Origin: Planctomycetaceae bacterium
Lineage (GTDB): Bacteria > Planctomycetota > Planctomycetia > Planctomycetales > Planctomycetaceae
DNA length: 64,000 bases
Assembly: GCA_002726205.1 (NCBI GenBank)
Contig: PBSL01000068.1
Span: 62,001 to 126,000 of the forward strand
Reading direction: 5' to 3'
Below the pieces are notes generated by a model, which saw only the letters and a program-made list of their open reading frames with translations, made no database searches and was not told where the DNA came from. Of the stretch, positions 47,833-62,386 are shown piece by piece (position 1 is the stretch's first letter; each line of letters opens with the position of its first letter). The position numbers and the translations under genes were made by a program.

Positions 47833-48780
47833 ATGGTCACTTCTGCACAGCCGCTGTCGGTGGGCCTGCTCGGGCTCGATCGCCACGGCCTGTTTCACCT
47901 GGAGCAGTTGAGCCTGCGTGGTGACCTGGTCCCGGTTGCGGTGGTCGCCGATGGTCATGGTCGGGCCGACCTGGGTGAAGGATTTGGTTGCCGGGTGTTC
48001 GAGGACCGCGTCGAGTTTCTCAGCGACGAGCGGATTGACCTGGTCCTGGTCACCGTCACCGGGAATCAACGAATGGCAGCGATCCGCCAGGTCCTGCTGG
48101 CGGGTCGATCCGTCGCCGTCTTGTCGCCGCTGTCGGAGGATCCCGCCGAGGCCGAGGCCCTGCTGGTCGCCGCCGAGGAGTCTGCTGGCCGGCTGTTGGT
48201 CCTTTCGCCAGGGCTGGGCGATGATGATTTCCAGGCCGCTCATGACCAGGTCCAGAGCGGTCGACTGGGATGTCCGATGACGTTGAAACACGTCACCTGG
48301 GGCTTCGCCGGAGCCGAGACCACGTTCGGGGGGTTGCCGGAACCGTTCCTGGTTGTTCTTGAACAGCTGCTGGTCCTCTCGGAAATCGGCCCATCGGCCG
48401 TCCTGGCCCGGACGCTTGGCGGTGCCGGAACGTCGGTGGGCCTCGGGGCAACGGTGACGATGACCAGCGGGGTGACCGCCGATGTCGAGTACCATCCGTC
48501 GAGTCCTGTACCGTTGAGGACCGGCTGGGTGGTTGCCGGATCGACGGGAGGTTATTGCGGTTTCGAGGTCTACACGGCGACCGATGATGACGAGGTCTAT
48601 TCCACGCCGGTTCCGGTTCCACCGGTCGATCCCGGCCAGACCTATGACGACCTGATCGCGCAGTGGCGCGACGATGCTCATCATGCGACGGTGTTGCAAC
48701 GGGCCGTTCGCCTGGCCGGGCTGGTCCACGCGGTGCGGCGGTCCCTGGACTTGGATGCGGTGGTAACACTCAGCGGCTGA
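47833..48780 (+). CDS. Divergent Gfo/Idh/MocA-like protein
   Basis: 315 aa. I chose the ATG at 47833, which has GGGGA at 8 nt; a GTG at 47818 is possible. The N-terminal half folds like a Rossmann domain (SVGLLGLDRHGLFHLEQLSL, then IDLVLVTVTGNQRMAAIRQV, then AGRSVAVLSPLSEDPAEAEA). The EKP catalytic motif of the family is replaced by LSP, and the glycine motif is altered, so NAD-dependent catalysis may be lost. The C-terminal half is beta-rich as in the family. Its end overlaps that of the convergent mfnF-like gene. Confidence 0.72.
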   Translation: MVTSAQPLSVGLLGLDRHGLFHLEQLSLRGDLVPVAVVADGHGRADLGEGFGCRVFEDRVEFLSDERIDLVLVTVTGNQRMAAIRQVLLAGRSVAVLSPLSEDPAEAEALLVAAEESAGRLLVLSPGLGDDDFQAAHDQVQSGRLGCPMTLKHVTWGFAGAETTFGGLPEPFLVVLEQLLVLSEIGPSAVLARTLGGAGTSVGLGATVTMTSGVTADVEYHPSSPVPLRTGWVVAGSTGGYCGFEVYTATDDDEVYSTPVPVPPVDPGQTYDDLIAQWRDDAHHATVLQRAVRLAGLVHAVRRSLDLDAVVTLSG

Positions 48781-49801
48781 GGAGGTGCGTCGCGCGTTCC
48801 CCGGCCAGCCGGGCGACGGCGTAGGCACAGGCGGCCGTGGCGACCGCATCGGAGAAGCACTTCGAGAGGTCGACGCGGTCGATTTTCGAGAGCACAGGGT
48901 GGTTTTCGAGAAGGCGGTGGGCCAGGAAGCAGCCACTGCCGCTGATGAGGAAGCGTTGGCAGGGAGCCGTGGATCGAGCGAGAACCCGCTGGAGGGCGTC
49001 TCCGATCCGCTGGCCCTGCGCCGCGGCAATCTCGTCGGCGATTTGCTCGAGGTCTTCAACGGACAGCTCGCTGGAATCGCAGCACAGCATCCTCGCCAGC
49101 CGGGCAGCCGCCCGGTGGCGGGTCGACGACCGGCCGTCGGGCGTGTCGTGGTCGGAGCTGTCTTCAGGGCGATCGCCGGTCAACAGGTACACGTCCGCGG
49201 TGGTCGCAAACGCTTCCGCCGCCACCCCGCAGGGATGGCCATCGTATGTGACCTCGGGAACGACCGCACACACCGGTGTTCGTGACACGCCAGAATAGAC
49301 CAGTTCGCCACTCTGCAGCCGTTGGAGATCGGTCAGGCCGCGGGGAATGGGAACACCGTCGAGCAACGGGATGATGTCGGTCGTCGTGGTACCGATATCC
49401 AGCAGCAGCGCCGCTCCGTCCGGGGCCAGGCGGCCGGTGAAGGTCGCCAGGGCGTGCCAGTTGGCCGCGGACACCAGCAGGGGAATTTCCGGGGCGACCT
49501 CGGCTTCGACGAATTCACCGCCGGTCTGCCAGGCGATCACCGGGCGGTTGCCGGCCACCTCGACGATCGCCGACAGCACCGCCGCAACGCCCTCGGCCTT
49601 CGTCTCAAAACAGTCGGCCAGCTCGGCCGTCATTGTCACCGCGAATCCGTCGGCAGCAGGCAATGCCAGCAGCAGCCGGTGCAATTCCGCCGCCAGTTGC
49701 TCGGGATGTCGCCAGATCGCGAAGCTGCGACTGGCGGCCTGGCCGTCGCCGTTGGCGGCCTTGAGGTTGGAACCGCCGATGTCCAGGCCGACGATCTGCA
49801 T
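48770..49801 (-). CDS. mfnF: Methanofuran biosynthesis MfnF-like / H4MPT-linked hydantoinase-family protein
   Basis: 343 aa. ASKHA-type protein: IVGLDIGGSNLKAANGDG at the N-terminus, TMTAELADCFETKAEGV, LLLDIGTTTTDIIPLLDG phosphate-loop motif, LQRLQSGELVYSGVSRTPVC. This is the signature of the H4MPT-linked C1 pathway protein family that includes archaeal MfnF, which joins the furan and tyramine parts of methanofuran. It is followed upstream, 59 bp away, by the mfnD-like ATP-grasp gene, which supports the assignment. The precise substrate in planctomycetes is inferred. Confidence 0.78.
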   Translation of the reverse strand: MQIVGLDIGGSNLKAANGDGQAASRSFAIWRHPEQLAAELHRLLLALPAADGFAVTMTAELADCFETKAEGVAAVLSAIVEVAGNRPVIAWQTGGEFVEAEVAPEIPLLVSAANWHALATFTGRLAPDGAALLLDIGTTTTDIIPLLDGVPIPRGLTDLQRLQSGELVYSGVSRTPVCAVVPEVTYDGHPCGVAAEAFATTADVYLLTGDRPEDSSDHDTPDGRSSTRHRAAARLARMLCCDSSELSVEDLEQIADEIAAAQGQRIGDALQRVLARSTAPCQRFLISGSGCFLAHRLLENHPVLSKIDRVDLSKCFSDAVATAACAYAVARLAGERATHLLSR

Positions 49802-49860: not shown

Positions 49861-50892
49861 TCAATCGTATCGCCAGTCGCCACTCGCTTCGAACAGTACG
49901 TGCCGGTCACTCCATTCGATCGTTTCCGGATCCGAGGGAATCGTCTCCGGGTGGGTGATCCAGCCGGCCAATGGTTGTTGAGTCAACCGGCGGTAACCGA
50001 GATAGGATGTTGTTAGCCTCGGATTGATCTCCATCACCACGGGAATCCCTGTCTCGGGCAACAGGATATCGACACCAATCCAGCCGGCCAGCCCGTCGAT
50101 CGCGCGGCAGGCATCAATAGCCAGCGTGCGAACGGCCCTGGTTGTCTGCTCTACGTCGAGTCGTGCCGGCAAGAGACCACCTTCATAGGTGAAACGGCTT
50201 TCCTTGTTGACGCGTTGTTCGGCAAGCGGCAGGGCCAGGATTCGCCTTTGACGGACCGGGTCGTCTTCGCGAGGGGCCATCTGCGGTGAGACCAGCACGG
50301 CCACCGACAGCGCCAGTCCCTCCAGCAGTGGTTGAGCGATCGCGGCCGGATCCGGAGGGGGCTGGTCGGCCGGTTGAATGGTGATTCCGACCGATCCGGC
50401 TCCGTCGCGTGGCTTCCAGACAACGGGACCGTTGATCGAAAGGACCTGGCCGGCCTCGACGGTTTCGATCACGGCAATCCCGGCTCGTTGCAGGTGACGG
50501 GCGGTCGCCAGTTTGTCGCTGCAGAGGACCAGTGCATCGCGGTCACAGCCGCTCCAGCGGCCCCCGGCGGTGCGGACCTGGTCGAAGCGATCGACGAGGG
50601 CTCCATCGAGTTCGGGAGCCACGACGAGCGTTCGATCGCATTCCCCGGCAAGCCGATTCAGGCAGTCAGCGGCGTGAACGCCGTTGTCGATGCTGACTGC
50701 CTCCACCCCGGGCAGCGGGAAGGGGCCAAGTCGCGAGTCCCAGCTGGTGACAACCGTGGTGTCGGGTTCGGCCAGCAGGTCTTCGGCCAGTGCCACGAGC
50801 ATGGCACGTCCCTCGGTGGCCAGCGATCCCACCAGGGGACGATCGGTCCAGGCACCACTGGTGATCTGCTCGGACAGAAAAACCCGTTCCAC
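49861..50892 (-). CDS. mfnD: ATP-grasp ligase, MfnD-like (tyramine-glutamate ligase)
   Basis: 343 aa. ATP-grasp features: LCSDKLATARHLQRAGIAVI, VVWKPRDGAGSVGITIQP with the ATP-binding lysine, and WIGVDILLPETGIPVVMEIN ending in PRLTTSYLGY, where the Glu/Asn metal ligands sit. Family members in methylotrophs and methanogens attach glutamate to tyramine in methanofuran synthesis. The neighbouring mfnF-like gene strengthens this. On sequence alone it could be another ATP-grasp peptide ligase. Confidence 0.66.
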   Translation of the reverse strand: MERVFLSEQITSGAWTDRPLVGSLATEGRAMLVALAEDLLAEPDTTVVTSWDSRLGPFPLPGVEAVSIDNGVHAADCLNRLAGECDRTLVVAPELDGALVDRFDQVRTAGGRWSGCDRDALVLCSDKLATARHLQRAGIAVIETVEAGQVLSINGPVVWKPRDGAGSVGITIQPADQPPPDPAAIAQPLLEGLALSVAVLVSPQMAPREDDPVRQRRILALPLAEQRVNKESRFTYEGGLLPARLDVEQTTRAVRTLAIDACRAIDGLAGWIGVDILLPETGIPVVMEINPRLTTSYLGYRRLTQQPLAGWITHPETIPSDPETIEWSDRHVLFEASGDWRYD

Positions 50893-55301: not shown

Positions 55302-55394
55302 CTCTTCCTCGCTGGCCCCCCGTCGCCGCCCCCCGTCGAAGGCGGTATTCTGTTGAAATTGGACTGAGCGTCCAGAGCGATTCGCTGGATTGTG

Positions 55395-56141
55395 ATGAGG
55401 CACAAGATGACAGGGCCGGCAGCGACACCCGAAGTGATCTACAGCGGTGAGCCGCTGGACCTGCTTGTCGTGGCGCCGCATCCCGACGATGCCGAGATCA
55501 GTGTTGGCGGCACAATCCTGGCGGCCCGGGCCGCCGGTCGACGGGTGGGTGTTCTCGAACTGACCAACGGCGAACCGACACCGCGGGGCACGCCCGAACG
55601 CCGTGCCGCCGAAACCGCCGCCGCCTCGGCTGTACTCGGACTCGAGTGGCGGGCCAATCTCGGCCTGCTCAACCGCAGCCTGCAGGACGACCTGGCCGCT
55701 CGCCGTGCGCTGGCGTGCGTATTTCGCCAGACCCGCCCGGCAGTGATCCTGGCCCCCTACTGGGAGGATGCTCATCCCGATCATGTCGCCGCCAGTCGGC
55801 TGGTTGATGACGCCAGGTTCTGGAGCAAACTGACCAAGACCGAGATGACCGGGGAGCCCTTCTGGCCACCGAGGTTGTGCTACTATTTCAGCGTCCACCT
55901 GAGGATTCATCCGTCGCCGTCGTTTGTCTTCGATGTCAGCGATCATCTCCAGGAGAAGTTAGAAGCCATCCGCTGTTTTGCCAGCCAGGTGATCGAAGGA
56001 CGCAGCGAGGAATTTCCCACACTGCTGGACGACATCCGTGACCGGGCACGCTACTGGGGTTGGACGATCGGGACCAGCTACGGGGAACCGCTGGTCTGCC
56101 GCGAGGAAATCGGGATTGCCGACTTCGAGGCTCTGCGCTGA
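55395..56141 (+). CDS. PIG-L family deacetylase, BshB1-like
   Basis: 248 aa; GTG 55392, ATG 55395 and ATG 55407 are all in frame. Zinc motif APHPDDAEISVGGTI near residue 30 and PYWEDAHPDHVAAS near ~117 give the metal ligands and catalytic Asp. The segments LTNGEPTPRGTPERRAAET and CYYFSVHLRIHPSPSFVFDV match planctomycete members named BshB1, which deacetylate N-acetylglucosaminyl-malate in bacillithiol synthesis; related PIG-L enzymes act on other GlcNAc derivatives. It overlaps the moaD-like gene by 1 nt. Confidence 0.8.
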   Translation: MRHKMTGPAATPEVIYSGEPLDLLVVAPHPDDAEISVGGTILAARAAGRRVGVLELTNGEPTPRGTPERRAAETAAASAVLGLEWRANLGLLNRSLQDDLAARRALACVFRQTRPAVILAPYWEDAHPDHVAASRLVDDARFWSKLTKTEMTGEPFWPPRLCYYFSVHLRIHPSPSFVFDVSDHLQEKLEAIRCFASQVIEGRSEEFPTLLDDIRDRARYWGWTIGTSYGEPLVCREEIGIADFEALR

Positions 56142-56416
56142 TGGGGGTCACTGTCGAGTTTTTTGGGATTGCACGTGAACGGGCCGGCCGGCCCGATCTC
56201 GAGGTCTGTTGCGGTATCGAATCGACCCGACTCGGCGATGTGCTGCTGGAGGTGGCCGAGCGGCTGCCGGTCCTGGCCGGCGAATGTCTTTCGGGTGAGC
56301 ATCCGCAGGTTGGTTTCCTGGTCAACATCAATGCCCATCGGTTCCTGGCCGATCCCGACGCGCTGGTCCATGCCGGCGACCACGTACTGTTGATGTCAGC
56401 CGATGCCGGGGGCTGA
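56141..56416 (+). CDS. MoaD/ThiS-type sulfur carrier protein
   Basis: 91 aa, start overlapping the deacetylase stop (TGATG). It has a beta-grasp layout (VEFFGIARERAGR, FLVNINAHRFL, DHVLLMSADAGG) and ends in the Gly-Gly needed for thiocarboxylation. It therefore should donate sulfur to molybdopterin (MoaD), or less likely to thiamine. Its position 51 bp before an aldehyde ferredoxin oxidoreductase gene argues for a tungsto/molybdopterin role. Confidence 0.86.
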   Translation: MGVTVEFFGIARERAGRPDLEVCCGIESTRLGDVLLEVAERLPVLAGECLSGEHPQVGFLVNINAHRFLADPDALVHAGDHVLLMSADAGG

Positions 56417-56467: not shown

Positions 56468-58306
56468 ATGACAGTTCTTCACGGCTACCACGGCTGTTAT
56501 CTCCGGATCGACCTGTCTGGTCGGACCAGCGAGGTCGTGAACTGGCCCGAGGGTGTGCTGCGTCGTTTTCTGGGCGGAACGGGGTTGGGCACCTGGTTGC
56601 TGCTCAGGGAGACACCCGGCCAGATCGATCCGCTGGCAGCGGAGGTCCCGCTGGTGTTCGTCTTCAGTCCCCTGGTCGACAGTCCGCTGACGACATCGGC
56701 GAAGTTTGCCGTGCTGGCCAAGAGTCCGTTGACCGGACGAATCAACGATTCGCTTGCCTCGTCCCATTTCGCGATCGCCGGCAAGCGGACCGGTCACGAT
56801 GCGATCGTGATCCACGGCGCGGCCGAGGCACCGACGTGCGTGGTGGTGTCGCCCAACGGCGTGGAGTTTGTTTCGGGAGAACCGTACTGGGGTCGATCGA
56901 GTCGCGAAACGGAAGCCGGATTACAGGACCGACTGGGCAAGGAGTTCCGGGTTGCCGCGATCGGGCCTGCCGGCGAAGCACTCGTGCACTTCGCGACGAT
57001 CTCGCACGAGGGTCGTCACGCCGGCCGCGGCGGGCTGGGGGCGGTGATGGGATCCAAACGTGTCAAGGCCGTCGCCGTTGCCGGCGATCGACGCGTGACA
57101 TTTGCCGACCCGGACCGGCTGCTCGAGATTTCCAGGGACCTCTCCCAGCGGTCACTCGGACCGGCCACCGCGAAATACCGCGAGCTGGGGACCATCGACA
57201 ATCTGCTGACGTTCAACCGTCTTGGCTCGCTACCGACGCGAAACTTCCAACGCGGGTTTTTTGAGGAGGCCGAGATGCTGGCTGCCGAGATGGCAGTCGG
57301 TGACGGAAATCGGACGCAAAAGAGCTGTGCGTCGTGCACGATCGGCTGCGAACACATTTTTCGCTTCAAGACGCCGCTGGGAACAGACGGCGAGACGAAA
57401 GATCCCGCGACCGACGTCGTGCGGATGGAATACGAGAATCTCTTCGCGCTGGGGCCGCTGTGCGGCATCTCGGACCCCGACACCGTGCTGGCTGCCTCGG
57501 CACGTTGTGACGAACTGGGTCTGGACACGATCAGTGCCGGAGCGACCGTGGCGTTTGCCATGGAGTGTGTCGAGCGGGGTCTGCTGGAAGTTCCCGGTCT
57601 GCGATTCGGGAACGGCGAGGCATTGCTGGCGATGATCGATGACATCGGTCGGCGGCGGGGCTGGGGAGAGTTGTTGGCCGGTGGCACGCGGGCGGCGGCC
57701 GAGTCGATCGGGGGAGGATCCGCGGCCTTTGCACCGCACGTCAAGGGACTCGAGATTCCAGGTTACGAGCCCCGGGCCCTGCAGACGATGGCCCTGGGAT
57801 TTGCCGTCGGCACGCGGGGTGCCGACCACAATCGTTCGGGGGCCTACGAGGTCGACTTTTCTCCAGAGGTCAATCGACTCGATGTCGGGTCCGAGGCGAT
57901 TGGACCGGCGGTGCGGGTTGAGGACGAAGCCGTGCTGATGGACTCACTGATCCTCTGCAAGTTCCTCCGGGGTGTCTTCGAGGATCGGATTGTCGGCATG
58001 GCCGAGTTGATTGGACCGGTGACCGGCTGGGATGTGACCGCTCGGGAACTTCGTAAAACCGCAAGCCGGATCGTGACCGCCAAGAAGGTCTTCAATATTT
58101 CCCAGGGCTGGACGCCGGCCGAGGACACCCTGCCGCAGCGGTTCTTCGAGGAGCCATTGGAGACCAGCGACGGTGGCCAGGTGTGGCTGGAGGAGTCACG
58201 TCTGGCCGAACAGGTTCGCGACTACAACCTCGCCCGCGGCTGGCTGGCCGATGGACACGTGCCGAACGAGCGGTTGGTGGCTCTGGGCCTGGCCAACATG
58301 ACGTGA
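56468..58306 (+). CDS. aor: Aldehyde:ferredoxin oxidoreductase (tungsten type)
   Basis: 612 aa, family length. N-terminal AOR_N features: GYHGCYLRIDLSGRTSEVVN, FLGGTGLGTWLLLRETPG, SPLTTSAKFAVLAKSPLTGR and the tungstopterin-contact GRHAGRGGLGAVMGSKRVKA. All four 4Fe-4S ligands are in place: Cys287, Cys290 and Cys294 in CASCTIGCEH and Cys497 in SLILCKFLRG, closely matching the spacing in Pyrococcus AOR. The enzyme oxidises aldehydes to acids, or the reverse, with ferredoxin. Substrate unknown; formaldehyde or an aldehyde linked to C1 metabolism is possible because fmd genes follow. It sits downstream of moaD. Confidence 0.93.
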   Translation: MTVLHGYHGCYLRIDLSGRTSEVVNWPEGVLRRFLGGTGLGTWLLLRETPGQIDPLAAEVPLVFVFSPLVDSPLTTSAKFAVLAKSPLTGRINDSLASSHFAIAGKRTGHDAIVIHGAAEAPTCVVVSPNGVEFVSGEPYWGRSSRETEAGLQDRLGKEFRVAAIGPAGEALVHFATISHEGRHAGRGGLGAVMGSKRVKAVAVAGDRRVTFADPDRLLEISRDLSQRSLGPATAKYRELGTIDNLLTFNRLGSLPTRNFQRGFFEEAEMLAAEMAVGDGNRTQKSCASCTIGCEHIFRFKTPLGTDGETKDPATDVVRMEYENLFALGPLCGISDPDTVLAASARCDELGLDTISAGATVAFAMECVERGLLEVPGLRFGNGEALLAMIDDIGRRRGWGELLAGGTRAAAESIGGGSAAFAPHVKGLEIPGYEPRALQTMALGFAVGTRGADHNRSGAYEVDFSPEVNRLDVGSEAIGPAVRVEDEAVLMDSLILCKFLRGVFEDRIVGMAELIGPVTGWDVTARELRKTASRIVTAKKVFNISQGWTPAEDTLPQRFFEEPLETSDGGQVWLEESRLAEQVRDYNLARGWLADGHVPNERLVALGLANMT

Positions 58307-58430
58307 ACGTGTCAATTGACCTTGGTGGTGGGGAGTGCGAGAATCGGCGGTCGGTGGCTCCGAGACAGGCGGCTGTCCGTCGTCGCCGGTCCCCTCGCAG
58401 CATGGTCCCCGACCGTCGTGTGTGTGTCTC

Positions 58431-58778
58431 ATGTCCGAACTGTTCATCCTGATCCCCGGCCGGACCGCTCAGCAAGGCGCGGCGCTCAGCGAAGGCAAGC
58501 ACACCGAAGGGTACCGCGTCGAGATCAGTACGCTGCTGGTTTCGCCGGAAGACATGCAACGGCTGGAAATGGCCGACGGCGACCGGGTGCGGGTCCACAA
58601 CGACGTGGGAGAATTCACGGTGCCGTGCAAGACCGCGCGGCGTGATGAACTGCCCCCCGGGATGCTCTTCATCAGTTACGGCGACAATTCCAGTCGGCTG
58701 ATGGGAGGGGATACCCACGGTTGCGGAATGCCCGACAGCAAGGGGTTGGACGTGTTCCTGGAAAAGGCGGGCGATTGA
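58431..58778 (+). CDS. fmdD: Formylmethanofuran dehydrogenase subunit D-like (molybdopterin dinucleotide binding)
   Basis: 115 aa from the ATG at 58431, 124 bp after aor. FILIPGRTAQQGAALSEGKH, VEISTLLVSPEDMQRLEMAD and GDRVRVHNDVGEFTVPCKTA are typical of the stand-alone molydopterin-dinucleotide binding subunit D of archaeal Fmd/Fwd. Its C-terminus (DTHGCGMPDSKGL) also matches. The fmdB gene follows after 3 bp. In bacterial Fhc complexes of methylotrophs this domain is part of a metal-free complex, so its conservation matters for the function. Confidence 0.85.
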   Translation: MSELFILIPGRTAQQGAALSEGKHTEGYRVEISTLLVSPEDMQRLEMADGDRVRVHNDVGEFTVPCKTARRDELPPGMLFISYGDNSSRLMGGDTHGCGMPDSKGLDVFLEKAGD

Positions 58779-58781
58779 TCG

Positions 58782-60125
58782 ATGAATGCGACCGAAGCCG
58801 TTTCGTCCGACGAATCGCCTCAGCAACTCAAGGTTGTCGAGGACGCGACCTGCACGTTTTGTGGATGCGTGTGCGACGACATGGAGTTGACGGTCGAGGA
58901 AAATCGCATCACCAAGGCCAGGAACGCCTGCGTGCTTGGCAAGGCCTGGTTCTTCAATCATCACATCGAGGACCGACCCGAGGCGACGATCGACGGGGAA
59001 CCGGCCGGCTACGACGCCGCGATGGATCGTGCCGCCGAGATCCTGCTCGCCGCCCGGTTTCCATTGACCTACGGACTTTCCGATACCACCACCGAGGCCC
59101 AGCGTGTGGCGATGGCAATCACCGACTGGATCGGTGGTGTGATCGACACGACCACTTCGGTCTGTCACGGGCCCACCGGGATTGCCTTCCAGAGCGTTGG
59201 TGAGGTGACCTGTTCGCTGGGCGAGATCAGGAACCGCGCCGACTACGTGATCTTCTGGGGTGGGAATCCCGCCGAGAGTCATCCGCGGCACTTCACCAAG
59301 TACAGCCTGATGCCCAAGGGCGAGTTTGTTCCCGGCGGTCGAAAGGACCGCACGGCGGTACTCATCGATGTCCGCAGGACCAAGAGCGCCAAGGCCGTGA
59401 ACCATTTCCTGCAGATCAAGCCCCGCTGCGATTTTGAGCTGGCGTGGGCCCTGAGAGCACTGGCGCGGGGATTGGCGGTGGACGAGTCGATCGAGGAAAC
59501 GACGGGGATCCCCCTGGCGACCCTGCACGAGGTGATGGACGGGATGAAGCGGGCCCGGTTCGGCGTGATCCTGTTCGGGATGGGAGTGACCATGACCCGT
59601 GGCAAGCACTTCAACAGCGAGGCCATTCTCGCACTGACCCGCGACATGAACCGGCACACCCGCTGGTGCGCCAAGCCGATGCGCGGTCACGGCAACGTGA
59701 GCGGCGCCGACAATGTGGTGACCTGGTCGACGGGATTTCCGTTCGGCGTGCACCTGGGCCGTGGCTACCCGCGGTTCAACCCCGGCGAATTCACCTCGTC
59801 GGACGTGCTGGCTCGTGGCGAGGCGGATGCGGCACTGATCATTGCCAGCGATCCCATGGCGAATTTCAGTCAGCCGGCTCGTGACCACCTCGAACAGATC
59901 CCCTCGATCGTGCTCGATCCCAAGCTCTCCACCACGGCTCGCACCGCCACGGTCGCCTTCACCACTTCGACCTACGGGATCAACACGCCGGGAACCGTCT
60001 ATCGAATGGATGACGTGCCGATTCCGCTGAGACCGGCGTTCGCCTCGCCTTACAAGAGTGACCTGGAGGTGTTGCAGGGTATCGAGTCACGGATCCGGCA
60101 GCGACAACTGGCGGACGGTCAATGA
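58782..60125 (+). CDS. fmdB: Formylmethanofuran dehydrogenase subunit B
   Basis: 447 aa, catalytic-subunit homologue of archaeal FwdB/FmdB. An N-terminal 4Fe-4S site is present: Cys24, Cys27, Cys31 (CTFCGCVCDDMEL) and Cys50 (NACVLGK). SVCHGPTG contains Cys128, which lies where archaeal FmdB has its Mo/W-ligand Cys (or Sec). Other segments: GEIRNRADYVIFWGGNPAES, VLIDVRRTKSAKAVNHFLQI and KPMRGHGNVSGADNVVTWST. With FmdD and FmdA it should reversibly link CO2/formate-level carbon to methanofuran. Overlaps fmdA by 4 nt. Confidence 0.92.
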   Translation: MNATEAVSSDESPQQLKVVEDATCTFCGCVCDDMELTVEENRITKARNACVLGKAWFFNHHIEDRPEATIDGEPAGYDAAMDRAAEILLAARFPLTYGLSDTTTEAQRVAMAITDWIGGVIDTTTSVCHGPTGIAFQSVGEVTCSLGEIRNRADYVIFWGGNPAESHPRHFTKYSLMPKGEFVPGGRKDRTAVLIDVRRTKSAKAVNHFLQIKPRCDFELAWALRALARGLAVDESIEETTGIPLATLHEVMDGMKRARFGVILFGMGVTMTRGKHFNSEAILALTRDMNRHTRWCAKPMRGHGNVSGADNVVTWSTGFPFGVHLGRGYPRFNPGEFTSSDVLARGEADAALIIASDPMANFSQPARDHLEQIPSIVLDPKLSTTARTATVAFTTSTYGINTPGTVYRMDDVPIPLRPAFASPYKSDLEVLQGIESRIRQRQLADGQ

Positions 60126-61774
60126 GTTCGCTGCGGATCACGGGTGGAACGATCCACGACCCGGCCAACGGGGTCGATGGTGTGGTAGGTGACATCTGGA
60201 TCGTCGCTGGGCGGGTCGTCGAACCGCCGACCGATCCGCAAGCAAAGGCTGACCGCACGCTTGATGCGACCGGCATGGTGGTGCTGCCCGGTGGCATCGA
60301 CATGCACTGCCACATTGCCGGGCCCAAGGTCAACACCGCGCGAAAGATGATCCCCGACGACAAGCGGCGCGCCGAACCGGTTCGGCGAACCCTGCTGACT
60401 CGATCGGGTACCGGCGGCAGCGTGCCAAGTACGTTCGCCACCGGCTATCTCTATGCCGGACTGGGTTATACCACCGCTTTTGATGCCGCCGTTCCGCCGC
60501 TGGGCGCTCGTCACGCGCACGAGGAATTCGAGGATACCCCGATACTCGACAAGGGCTTTTATGTCCTGATGGGGAACAACCACTACGTGATGAAACAACT
60601 CGCGGCCGATGAGCCGAAGCGGTTGGAAGCCTATATCGCGTGGTTGCTGAGGGCGACGAAGGGCTACACGGCCAAGTTGGTCAACCCCGGTGGCGTGGAG
60701 GTCTGGAAGAGCGGCGGCGGTAACGTCAGCGGAATCGATGACACCGTCAAACACTTCGATGTCACCCCGCGGCAGATCATCCGGGGAGTTGCCGCGGCGG
60801 TCGAGGATCTCGGATTGCCGCACTCGGTACATATCCACTGCAACAACCTGGGCCTGCCGGGTAACTGGTCGACCACCCGGCAGACCATGGAAGCGCTGGA
60901 CGGACGCCGCGGGCACCTGACCCACATCCAGTTTCACAGTTACGACGGCGATCCCGACGACCAGGCGACCTTCGGGTCGCGGGTGCCGGAGTTGGCCGAG
61001 TACATCAACACGCACGACAATCTGACCGTCGACGTCGGCCAGGTGATGTTCGCCAATACGACGTCGATGACCGGTGACGGACCGCTGGGCTATTTCCTGC
61101 ACCAGGTGACCGGGCGAAAGTGGTACAGCGGCGACCTCGAGATGGAGTCCGGATGCGGAATCGTTCCGATCACCTACAAGCGCAAGAGCCTGGTGCATTC
61201 GCTGCAGTGGGCGATCGGGCTGGAATGGTACCTGCTGGTCGATGACCCGTGGCGAATCGCGATGAGCACCGATCACCCCAATGGAGGATCGTTCCTGGCC
61301 TATCCGGAGATCATCGCGCTGTTGATGGATCGCGAGCGGCGGCGGGAGGCGTTGGCAGGGTTACCGGCGGCGGTGACCGACCACTGTTCGCTGGGTGATC
61401 TTGACCGGGAATACACTCTCAACGAGATCGCGATCATCACCCGGGCCGGGCCGGCCCGGATTCTGGGGCTGGCCGACAAGGGACACCTCGGCCCCGGTGC
61501 CGACGGAGACGTCACGATCTACAACCCCGACGATGACATCCAGCGAATGTTCGAGTTGCCCCGCTATGTTGTCAGTCGAGGCGAGGTGGTTGTCGATGAC
61601 GCCCAGATCGTTCATGACTCGCGAGGCCGTACACTGCACGTCGAACCCGACTTCGATCTTGAGGCCGTTGACGACATCCAGCAGTGGTTCGAGCAGACCT
61701 ACTCGATCCAGTTCCGCAACTACCCGGTCGATGATCATTATCTCGAGAATCCTCAAGTGGTTCCAACACACTGA
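60122..61774 (+). CDS. fmdA: Formylmethanofuran dehydrogenase subunit A
   Basis: 550 aa, amidohydrolase fold. Metal ligands: His62 and His64 (GIDMHCHIAGPKVN), the Lys of YTAKLVNPGG (position of the carboxylated lysine), HIHCNNLGLPGN, HIQFHSYDG and the Asp of AMSTDHPNGG. This subunit hydrolyses formylmethanofuran to formate and methanofuran (or the reverse). The C subunit and Ftr, which complete the complex elsewhere, are not found downstream: the next gene is a repeat-rich membrane protein. Confidence 0.95.
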   Translation: MSSLRITGGTIHDPANGVDGVVGDIWIVAGRVVEPPTDPQAKADRTLDATGMVVLPGGIDMHCHIAGPKVNTARKMIPDDKRRAEPVRRTLLTRSGTGGSVPSTFATGYLYAGLGYTTAFDAAVPPLGARHAHEEFEDTPILDKGFYVLMGNNHYVMKQLAADEPKRLEAYIAWLLRATKGYTAKLVNPGGVEVWKSGGGNVSGIDDTVKHFDVTPRQIIRGVAAAVEDLGLPHSVHIHCNNLGLPGNWSTTRQTMEALDGRRGHLTHIQFHSYDGDPDDQATFGSRVPELAEYINTHDNLTVDVGQVMFANTTSMTGDGPLGYFLHQVTGRKWYSGDLEMESGCGIVPITYKRKSLVHSLQWAIGLEWYLLVDDPWRIAMSTDHPNGGSFLAYPEIIALLMDRERRREALAGLPAAVTDHCSLGDLDREYTLNEIAIITRAGPARILGLADKGHLGPGADGDVTIYNPDDDIQRMFELPRYVVSRGEVVVDDAQIVHDSRGRTLHVEPDFDLEAVDDIQQWFEQTYSIQFRNYPVDDHYLENPQVVPTH

Positions 61775-61879: not shown

Positions 61880-62386
61880 ATGACTTTGACGACCCGTTTA
61901 GGATTGGGCCTGCTGGGCGGAATGTTGCTGCTTTCGTTGGCCGTCAGCCCCGTCGCTGCCCAGAGCGGCGGCAGTCCTGCAGACCAGGCGAAATTCGAAC
62001 AACAGGGCGACGCGCCGATCAGCCAGGGCGGCCAATCTGCTGATACCGGGGAAGTGATCGAAGAAGTGGCTCCGGATGTGTTGCCGTATGTTCTCGTTGC
62101 GGTCCTGATTGTCGGTGGCGGGATCTACTGGTTTACGACTAGCGCAGGCCAAGGTGCTGATGCCGGACCGGCTGCCACCGAGGTCGAAGCGACTGAACCG
62201 GCAGTAACTGAACCGGCAGTAACTGAACCGGCAGTAACTGAACCGGCGGCGACTGAACCGGCAGCGACTGAACCGGCAGCGACTGAGGAAGCTGTGGCTG
62301 AGGCTGCCGATGCCGGAGATGCCGGAGATGCCGATGCCGGAGATGCCGATGCCGGAGATGCTGATGCCGCGCCGGATGATGGCTGA
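61880..62386 (+). CDS. Membrane-anchored protein with tandem-repeat tail
   Basis: 168 aa from the ATG at 61880, preceded by GGGAGAG. A signal peptide (LGLGLLGGMLLLSLAVSPVA) precedes a short linker, then a membrane segment (VLPYVLVAVLIVGGGIYWFT), so the tail faces one side. The tail consists of EPAVT/EPAAT pentapeptides (about six copies) followed by AGDAD repeats. No known family. Repeat slippage should make its length vary between strains. Confidence 0.72.
   Translation: MTLTTRLGLGLLGGMLLLSLAVSPVAAQSGGSPADQAKFEQQGDAPISQGGQSADTGEVIEEVAPDVLPYVLVAVLIVGGGIYWFTTSAGQGADAGPAATEVEATEPAVTEPAVTEPAVTEPAATEPAATEPAATEEAVAEAADAGDAGDADAGDADAGDADAAPDDG
62192..62281 (+). repeat. Six 15-bp tandem repeats (TEPAV/TEPAA)
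   Basis: Six head-to-tail units of the form ACTGAACCGGCAGTA or close variants, starting at 62192, 62207, 62222, 62237, 62252 and 62267, with a partial seventh. All are in frame inside the membrane-protein gene. Confidence 0.9.
62309..62367 (+). repeat. GATGCCGGA-type short tandem repeats (AGDAD)
   Basis: Interleaved 9- and 15-bp units (GATGCCGGA with GATGCC) encode the acidic Ala/Gly/Asp end of the same protein. Confidence 0.8.

Follow-up and report, generated by a model that had tools for sequence, protein, structure and literature searches.

The window analysed here is a stretch of 64,000 nucleotides (positions 62001–126000 of contig 69) from a planctomycete genome of 4.86 Mb in 76 contigs, and contains three genes, fwdD, fwdB and fwdA, that probably encode the core of a redox-active formylmethanofuran dehydrogenase (FMD). 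All three lie on the + strand: fwdD (58431–58778) encodes a stand-alone molybdopterin-dinucleotide-binding subunit D of 115 aa, fwdB (58782–60125) the catalytic subunit B of 447 aa, and fwdA (60122–61774) the amidohydrolase subunit A of 550 aa. The genes are contiguous, with a 3-nt gap between fwdD and fwdB and a 4-nt ATGA overlap between fwdB and fwdA, in agreement with an earlier note on this DNA which had described them, as fmdD-fmdB-fmdA, as contiguous and coupled. Upstream on the same strand lie, in order, bshB1, a MoaD-like gene and a gene for an aldehyde ferredoxin oxidoreductase (AOR). Three promoter-like matches occur in the region, one of them before fwdD (58316–58344), against 1.2 expected by chance, and for this reason nothing is claimed from it. 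The closest loci to the window are in Planctomycetaceae metagenome-assembled genomes, with 85% identity in B.

FwdB matches TIGR03129 at 486 bits (curated NCBIfam cut-off 327.8) and FwdA matches TIGR03121 at 752 bits (NCBIfam cut-off 393). FwdD falls below the cut-off of 175 for NF042908, a model of the archaeal tungsten type (E 1e-18, 67 bits), and above the cut-off for the Pfam family Molydop_binding (PF01568); its top PDB matches are to subunit D of archaeal FMD, bearing out the separate subunit D described earlier, and 26 positions are invariant among 12 D proteins from planctomycetes. The ratio of nonsynonymous to synonymous substitution rates (dN/dS), calculated against the three closest relatives, is approximately 0.09–0.11 for D, B and A, indicating strong purifying selection on all three subunits.

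Metal-site residues and predicted fold

FwdB carries four cysteines (C24, C27, C31 and C50; 58851–58931) which occupy the [4Fe-4S] cluster positions and are its predicted ligands, a predicted Mo/W ligand with its adjoining His (C128-H129; 59163–59168), and a second-sphere Arg-Gly-His motif (R301-G302-H303; 59682–59690), all encoded on the + strand. In alignment, C128, H129, R301 and H303 fall on C118, H119, R288 and H290 of 5t5i_B, the tungsten enzyme of Methanothermobacter wolfei, the motif thus corresponding to R288-G-H290 of that protein. Two other structures, 8rja_B and 9sw6_J, likewise have Cys at the position of C128, and 9sfi_Q has a non-standard residue there, printed as x and taken to be selenocysteine (Sec). 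The cysteine numbering of the earlier note (24, 27, 31, 50 and 128) was therefore exact, and its placement of Cys128 at the archaeal Mo/W ligand position is upheld. A 2024 review (PMC11656701) describes a Cys or Sec ligand, a His119 positioned where it might act as a gate, and a His290 that lies close to the metal, and considers it not feasible to tell W from Mo by sequence.

The structure of FwdB was predicted with AF2 from a 33-sequence alignment (pLDDT 87.9), a modelling check already suggested in the earlier note. The best PDB matches of the model were 8rja_B and 5t5i (TM score 0.89–0.90, 1.8–2.0 Å), compared with a TM score of 0.67–0.68 and 3.4–3.8 Å for Methylorubrum FhcB (6s6y). The comparison supports an archaeal FwdB fold, as modelled, but not metal loading.

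FwdA residues H62, H64, K185, H237, D384 and K69 correspond to H57, H59, K178, H229, D385 and K64 of 5t5i_A, the first five being the binuclear-metal residues and K69 the gate residue. The Lys64 that K69 matches is shown at the FwdA cavity in PMC11656701. The FwdA metal residues were rejected as a sign of dehydrogenase function, as hydrolase complexes need them too.

Compared with the archaeal W/Mo enzymes (M. wolfei FMD, 5T5I; ethanotroph Fwd, 8RJA), the planctomycete system likewise has A, B and D, with a C subunit elsewhere in the genome; B is approximately 40% identical, with a fold within approximately 2 Å, and the metal-ligand, second-sphere, cluster and FwdA metal residues are identical. 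It differs in that no FwdF/FwdG polyferredoxin or F420 module was seen, that C is unlinked, and that the host is bacterial and encodes an oxidase along with genes for formaldehyde oxidation.

Co-occurrence of fwdD with an intact metal site

Related loci were collected from public genomes using peptide patterns that excluded the active-site motifs, and each of the 80 loci recovered retains the C128-H129 pair, the Arg-Gly-His motif and all four cysteines of the cluster; fwdD was present in 62 of these, lying within approximately 350 bases of fwdB in 59. From a sample of 294 planctomycete genomes, B subunits were sorted into four classes, the class names being those of this study. Class I, which includes the window FwdB, has the Cys with its His and the Arg-Gly-His motif, while class II is as class I but with TGA at the ligand codon. 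In class III, at 41–47% identity to the window B, the ligand position is occupied by Cys, Gly or Ser, and in class IV (approximately 23–34% identity) the ligand region is gone; the Arg-Gly-His motif is broken in every planctomycete B of classes III and IV.

Among 23 genomes searched, a stand-alone fwdD was found in all nine with a class I or II B and in none of the 14 with only class III or IV, the leftover weak fwdD matches sitting inside open frames of 730–990 residues. As a bare count that ignores kinship this split has a probability of 1.2e-6, but it represents far fewer than 23 independent events because the genomes are related and there is one class I/II group. In two genomes (G125 and G323), fwdD is still present though far from fwdB. 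At three class II loci (L104, L105 and L106) an in-frame TGA lies precisely at the metal-ligand codon, indicating putative selenocysteine forms of FwdB in two planctomycete families, as would be expected if this position were a working metal ligand.

Four genomes (G323, G003, G298 and G125) carry an intact B together with a class III copy (L135, L136, L137 and L138). These copies retain the Cys without the Arg-Gly-His motif, possibly representing an intermediate in the loss of redox function, and the presence of intact and decayed B subunits in some planctomycetes makes that loss testable by comparing relatives. Separately, one contig bears the label 'Euryarchaeota archaeon isolate SP207' (L062), but its B subunit groups with Pirellulaceae sequences in the tree, and it is probably a mislabelled or mis-binned planctomycete contig.

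In four proteobacterial plasmid loci for the formyltransferase/hydrolase complex (Fhc; L188–L191), the N-terminal cysteines of FhcB are kept, the ligand and Arg-Gly-His motif are gone and a D subunit was not found; the gene order B-A-Ftr-C is annotated in three of the four. The tree that takes in Proteobacteria, with its very long branches, was not relied on for the order of branching. As the N-terminal cysteines are kept both in these proteins and in decayed planctomycete B subunits, they were set aside as evidence of activity, and of the features offered in the earlier note only C128 and the D subunit remain informative. The signs that do discriminate are the Cys/Sec-His pair, the Arg-Gly-His motif and the stand-alone D subunit.

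The system described here shares A, C, Ftr and the logic of a tetrahydromethanopterin (H4MPT)/methylofuran pathway with Fhc (Methylorubrum extorquens, 6S6Y, and the plasmid operons). It differs in having the metal ligand, Arg-Gly-His motif and D subunit that the four plasmid operons lack, and in encoding Ftr on a separate contig (C21) and not in the operon; Methylorubrum FhcB gives only a weak sequence match to the window FwdB. The 2024 review attributes the loss of the metallopterin in Methylorubrum to a missing D subunit together with remodelling of B loops (PMC11656701). The distinction from metal-free Fhc drawn in the earlier note accordingly stands, with C128 in the ligand column, H129, R301 and H303 kept and D present.

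An Fhc-like formyltransferase/hydrolase, in which FwdA would free formate, B and D would be structural and an NAD-type formate dehydrogenase would oxidise the formate, is nonetheless conceivable given that any Fhc would require the same metal-site residues as FwdA, that the genome encodes a formate dehydrogenase (TIGR01591) with a NuoE/NuoF-like partner, and that the organism has a haem-copper oxidase. This alternative is considered improbable, as it leaves unexplained why, with purifying selection strong, C128, H129, R301, H303 and fwdD have been retained, when both the motif and fwdD have disappeared from relatives that took the hydrolase route.

A paper of 2016 (PMC4807772) described an operon fmdD-fmdB-fmdA-fmdC, its B being of the Sec type, in Rhodopirellula isolate P2; it also mentions Cys forms, and it reports three further planctomycetes in which B is of the Gly type. 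The window locus shares with isolate P2 the phylum, the D-B-A order and an intact metal-ligand position, but has Cys in place of Sec, an unlinked C in place of fmdC in the operon, a single B in the genome and an AOR/MoaD neighbour. The Hakuba Actinobacteria encode fwdDBA-ftr-fwdC (PMC7325909), similarly combining a bacterial FwdB bearing the cluster and Cys118 with a D subunit and no FwdFG; there, Ftr and C are in the operon and H4MPT synthesis genes were not seen, whereas the present genome has an MptN-like gene and enzymes that depend on H4MPT. A further 2016 study (PMC5020050) stated that fwdD is absent from Planctomycetes. The present data disagree for several planctomycete groups, in which fwdD is present and tracks the intact metal site. 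This pairing and the AOR/MoaD neighbourhood are the less-described parts of the system.

Pathway context and direction of the reaction

Genome-wide absences reported here come from searches of an assembly that is 96% complete. The genome has a single B, a second weak match being a formate dehydrogenase, and fwdA of the window is the sole full A copy. The earlier note, in agreement with the present analysis, saw neither a C subunit nor Ftr in this window and pointed to a genome search for them, and both were located on other contigs: a C subunit at C1:84392–85198 (246 bits, above the family cut-off; a weaker C-like match on C36 is below it) and a single Ftr at C21:57012–57878. The genes fae and that for an MtdB-type dehydrogenase adjoin each other on C75, mch lies on C59 beside an MptN-like ligase, the NAD-type formate dehydrogenase is on C2, and the haem-copper oxidase is on C57. 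No FwdF/FwdG-like polyferredoxin was found near fwdDBA in a genome search with Fer4_7, in which none of the 13 matches was nearby and those inspected resembled other complexes or a small ferredoxin, and no dedicated polyferredoxin emerged from clustering of 1031 open reading frames around fwdB.

Gene content, residue identity, predicted fold, selection and the co-occurrence of fwdD together make it likely that fwdDBA encodes the core of a redox-active, Mo/W-bis-pyranopterin FMD which joins the unlinked FwdC and works in the oxidative direction; metal loading, formate channelling, this direction and ferredoxin as acceptor are inferred. Under such a scheme, Fae, the MtdB-type dehydrogenase and Mch would carry formaldehyde to formyl-H4MPT, and Ftr would transfer the formyl group to methanofuran or methylofuran. 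The formyl carrier would then be hydrolysed to formate by FwdA inside the complex, and the C128-ligated metal of FwdB/FwdD would be where formate is converted to CO2. A soluble ferredoxin would probably take up the electrons that leave through the [4Fe-4S] cluster of FwdB, since nothing resembling FwdF/FwdG was seen in the neighbourhood.

According to published work (PMC11493965), the direction in which an FMD runs depends on metabolic flux and on the electron acceptor rather than on the active site. Oxidation is most likely here because fae, mtdB-type, mch and ftr genes, a haem-copper oxidase and an NAD-type formate dehydrogenase are all present. The compatibility with an active Mo/W enzyme proposed in the earlier note is thus retained, in view of the ligand, H129, R301, H303 and D; the gene set, for its part, points to oxidation rather than to the reversible synthesis from CO2 that the note suggested. 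A reductive role, with CO2 converted to formylmethanofuran as in methanogens for biosynthetic C1 supply, would be compatible with an active site equivalent to those of CO2-reducing enzymes and with a direction not fixed by that site (PMC11493965), and reduction of ferredoxin by the neighbouring AOR is conceivable in principle. However, fae and mtdB-type genes are part of the usual formaldehyde-oxidation set, and neither a low-potential donor nor a dedicated polyferredoxin turned up in the vicinity, making this role very unlikely.

Several points weigh against an oxidative, redox-active FMD. The class I and II B subunits form a single group in the tree, which lowers the number of independent events; the genome encodes an NAD-type formate dehydrogenase, so that a hydrolase-only route would likewise reach CO2; FMDs are oxygen-sensitive (PMC11656701), and a haem-copper oxidase is encoded in this genome; neither the Fer4_7 search nor the surroundings of fwdDBA yielded a dedicated electron acceptor; and, with C and Ftr encoded apart from fwdDBA, assembly of FwdABCD is an assumption. 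This planctomycete can probably oxidise formaldehyde-derived carbon straight to CO2; with an active enzyme, formyl groups could be oxidised to CO2 with release of low-potential electrons instead of being released as formate. The system also bears on the origin of the bacterial methylotroph formyl-handling complex from the archaeal CO2-reducing enzyme.

AOR, cofactor genes and other neighbours

Upstream of fwdD, a tungsten-type AOR of 612 aa (56468–58306, +; PF02730 and PF01314) is preceded by a small MoaD/ThiS-like protein (56141–56416, +) with a weak match to TIGR01687 (E 8e-4, below cut-off). The AOR is 40% identical to 1aor and has the AFOR N and C domains, the cluster cysteines and the catalytic Glu and His (C287, C290, C294, C497, E323 and H454 kept). 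Near class I fwdB genes, AOR occurs at 20 of the 80 loci (12 upstream on the same strand, five upstream on the opposite strand and three downstream), MoaD-like genes at 17, FwdC at 16, MobA at 10 and MoeA at nine. AOR, MoaD, MoeA, MobA, FwdC and FwdD were not found at any of 16 class III/IV loci, a control too small to be telling for MoeA and MobA. Cofactor genes beside the operon would fit a pterin-dinucleotide enzyme.

A strict association between AOR and FMD was rejected, as related AOR genes turn up in three genomes, all of one genus, from which fwdD is missing, and none was found in the three Sec-type genomes; the link is partial. No publication tying AOR to this operon in Planctomycetes was found in a partial literature collection. 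An additional reading, not exclusive of the oxidative FMD, is that the FMD and the adjacent AOR form one module, in which AOR would oxidise formaldehyde or another aldehyde and the two enzymes would share a cofactor supply (MoaD-like, MoeA and MobA) and a ferredoxin pool. This is advanced tentatively: the three arrangements of AOR near fwdB, its absence from all 16 decayed-B loci, and an AOR in G323 (C1:1018398–1020575) that remains beside fwdD with fwdB 3.7 Mb away speak for it, and the fwdD-less and Sec-type genomes speak against it.

A combined reading would have Planctomycetes preserving the stages by which a CO2-linked dehydrogenase of the archaeal type turned stepwise into the hydrolase complex of bacteria, with the intact enzyme and tungsten AOR acting as one tungsten-dependent formaldehyde-to-CO2 module in a bacterium that has a terminal oxidase. 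The steps would run from intact Cys/Sec with D, through loss of D and Arg-Gly-His with Cys kept, to replacement of Cys by Gly or Ser and finally loss of the whole site; as a whole this is regarded as speculative and rather doubtful.

Tandem MoeA-type genes occur near fwdDB at three loci (L075:13186–16406, –; L093:13182–16447, –; L086:2299–5494, +), the longer in L075 matching PRK14498 including its extra C-terminal domain, and the two copies might serve different metals. On contig C21 of the same genome as the window (L170:3084–7014), a second AOR, unlike that of the window, occurs with a 4Fe-4S subunit and an NADH-type flavoprotein. Elsewhere in the window, bshB1 lies at 55392–56141 (+), and two genes on the – strand encode an MfnF-like methanofuran-biosynthesis protein (48770–49801; TIGR03123 at 286 bits, above cut-off; NF040623 MfnF, E 6e-52, below cut-off) and an MfnD-like ATP-grasp protein (49861–50892; NF040722, E 7e-14, below cut-off), possibly a tyramine-glutamate ligase.

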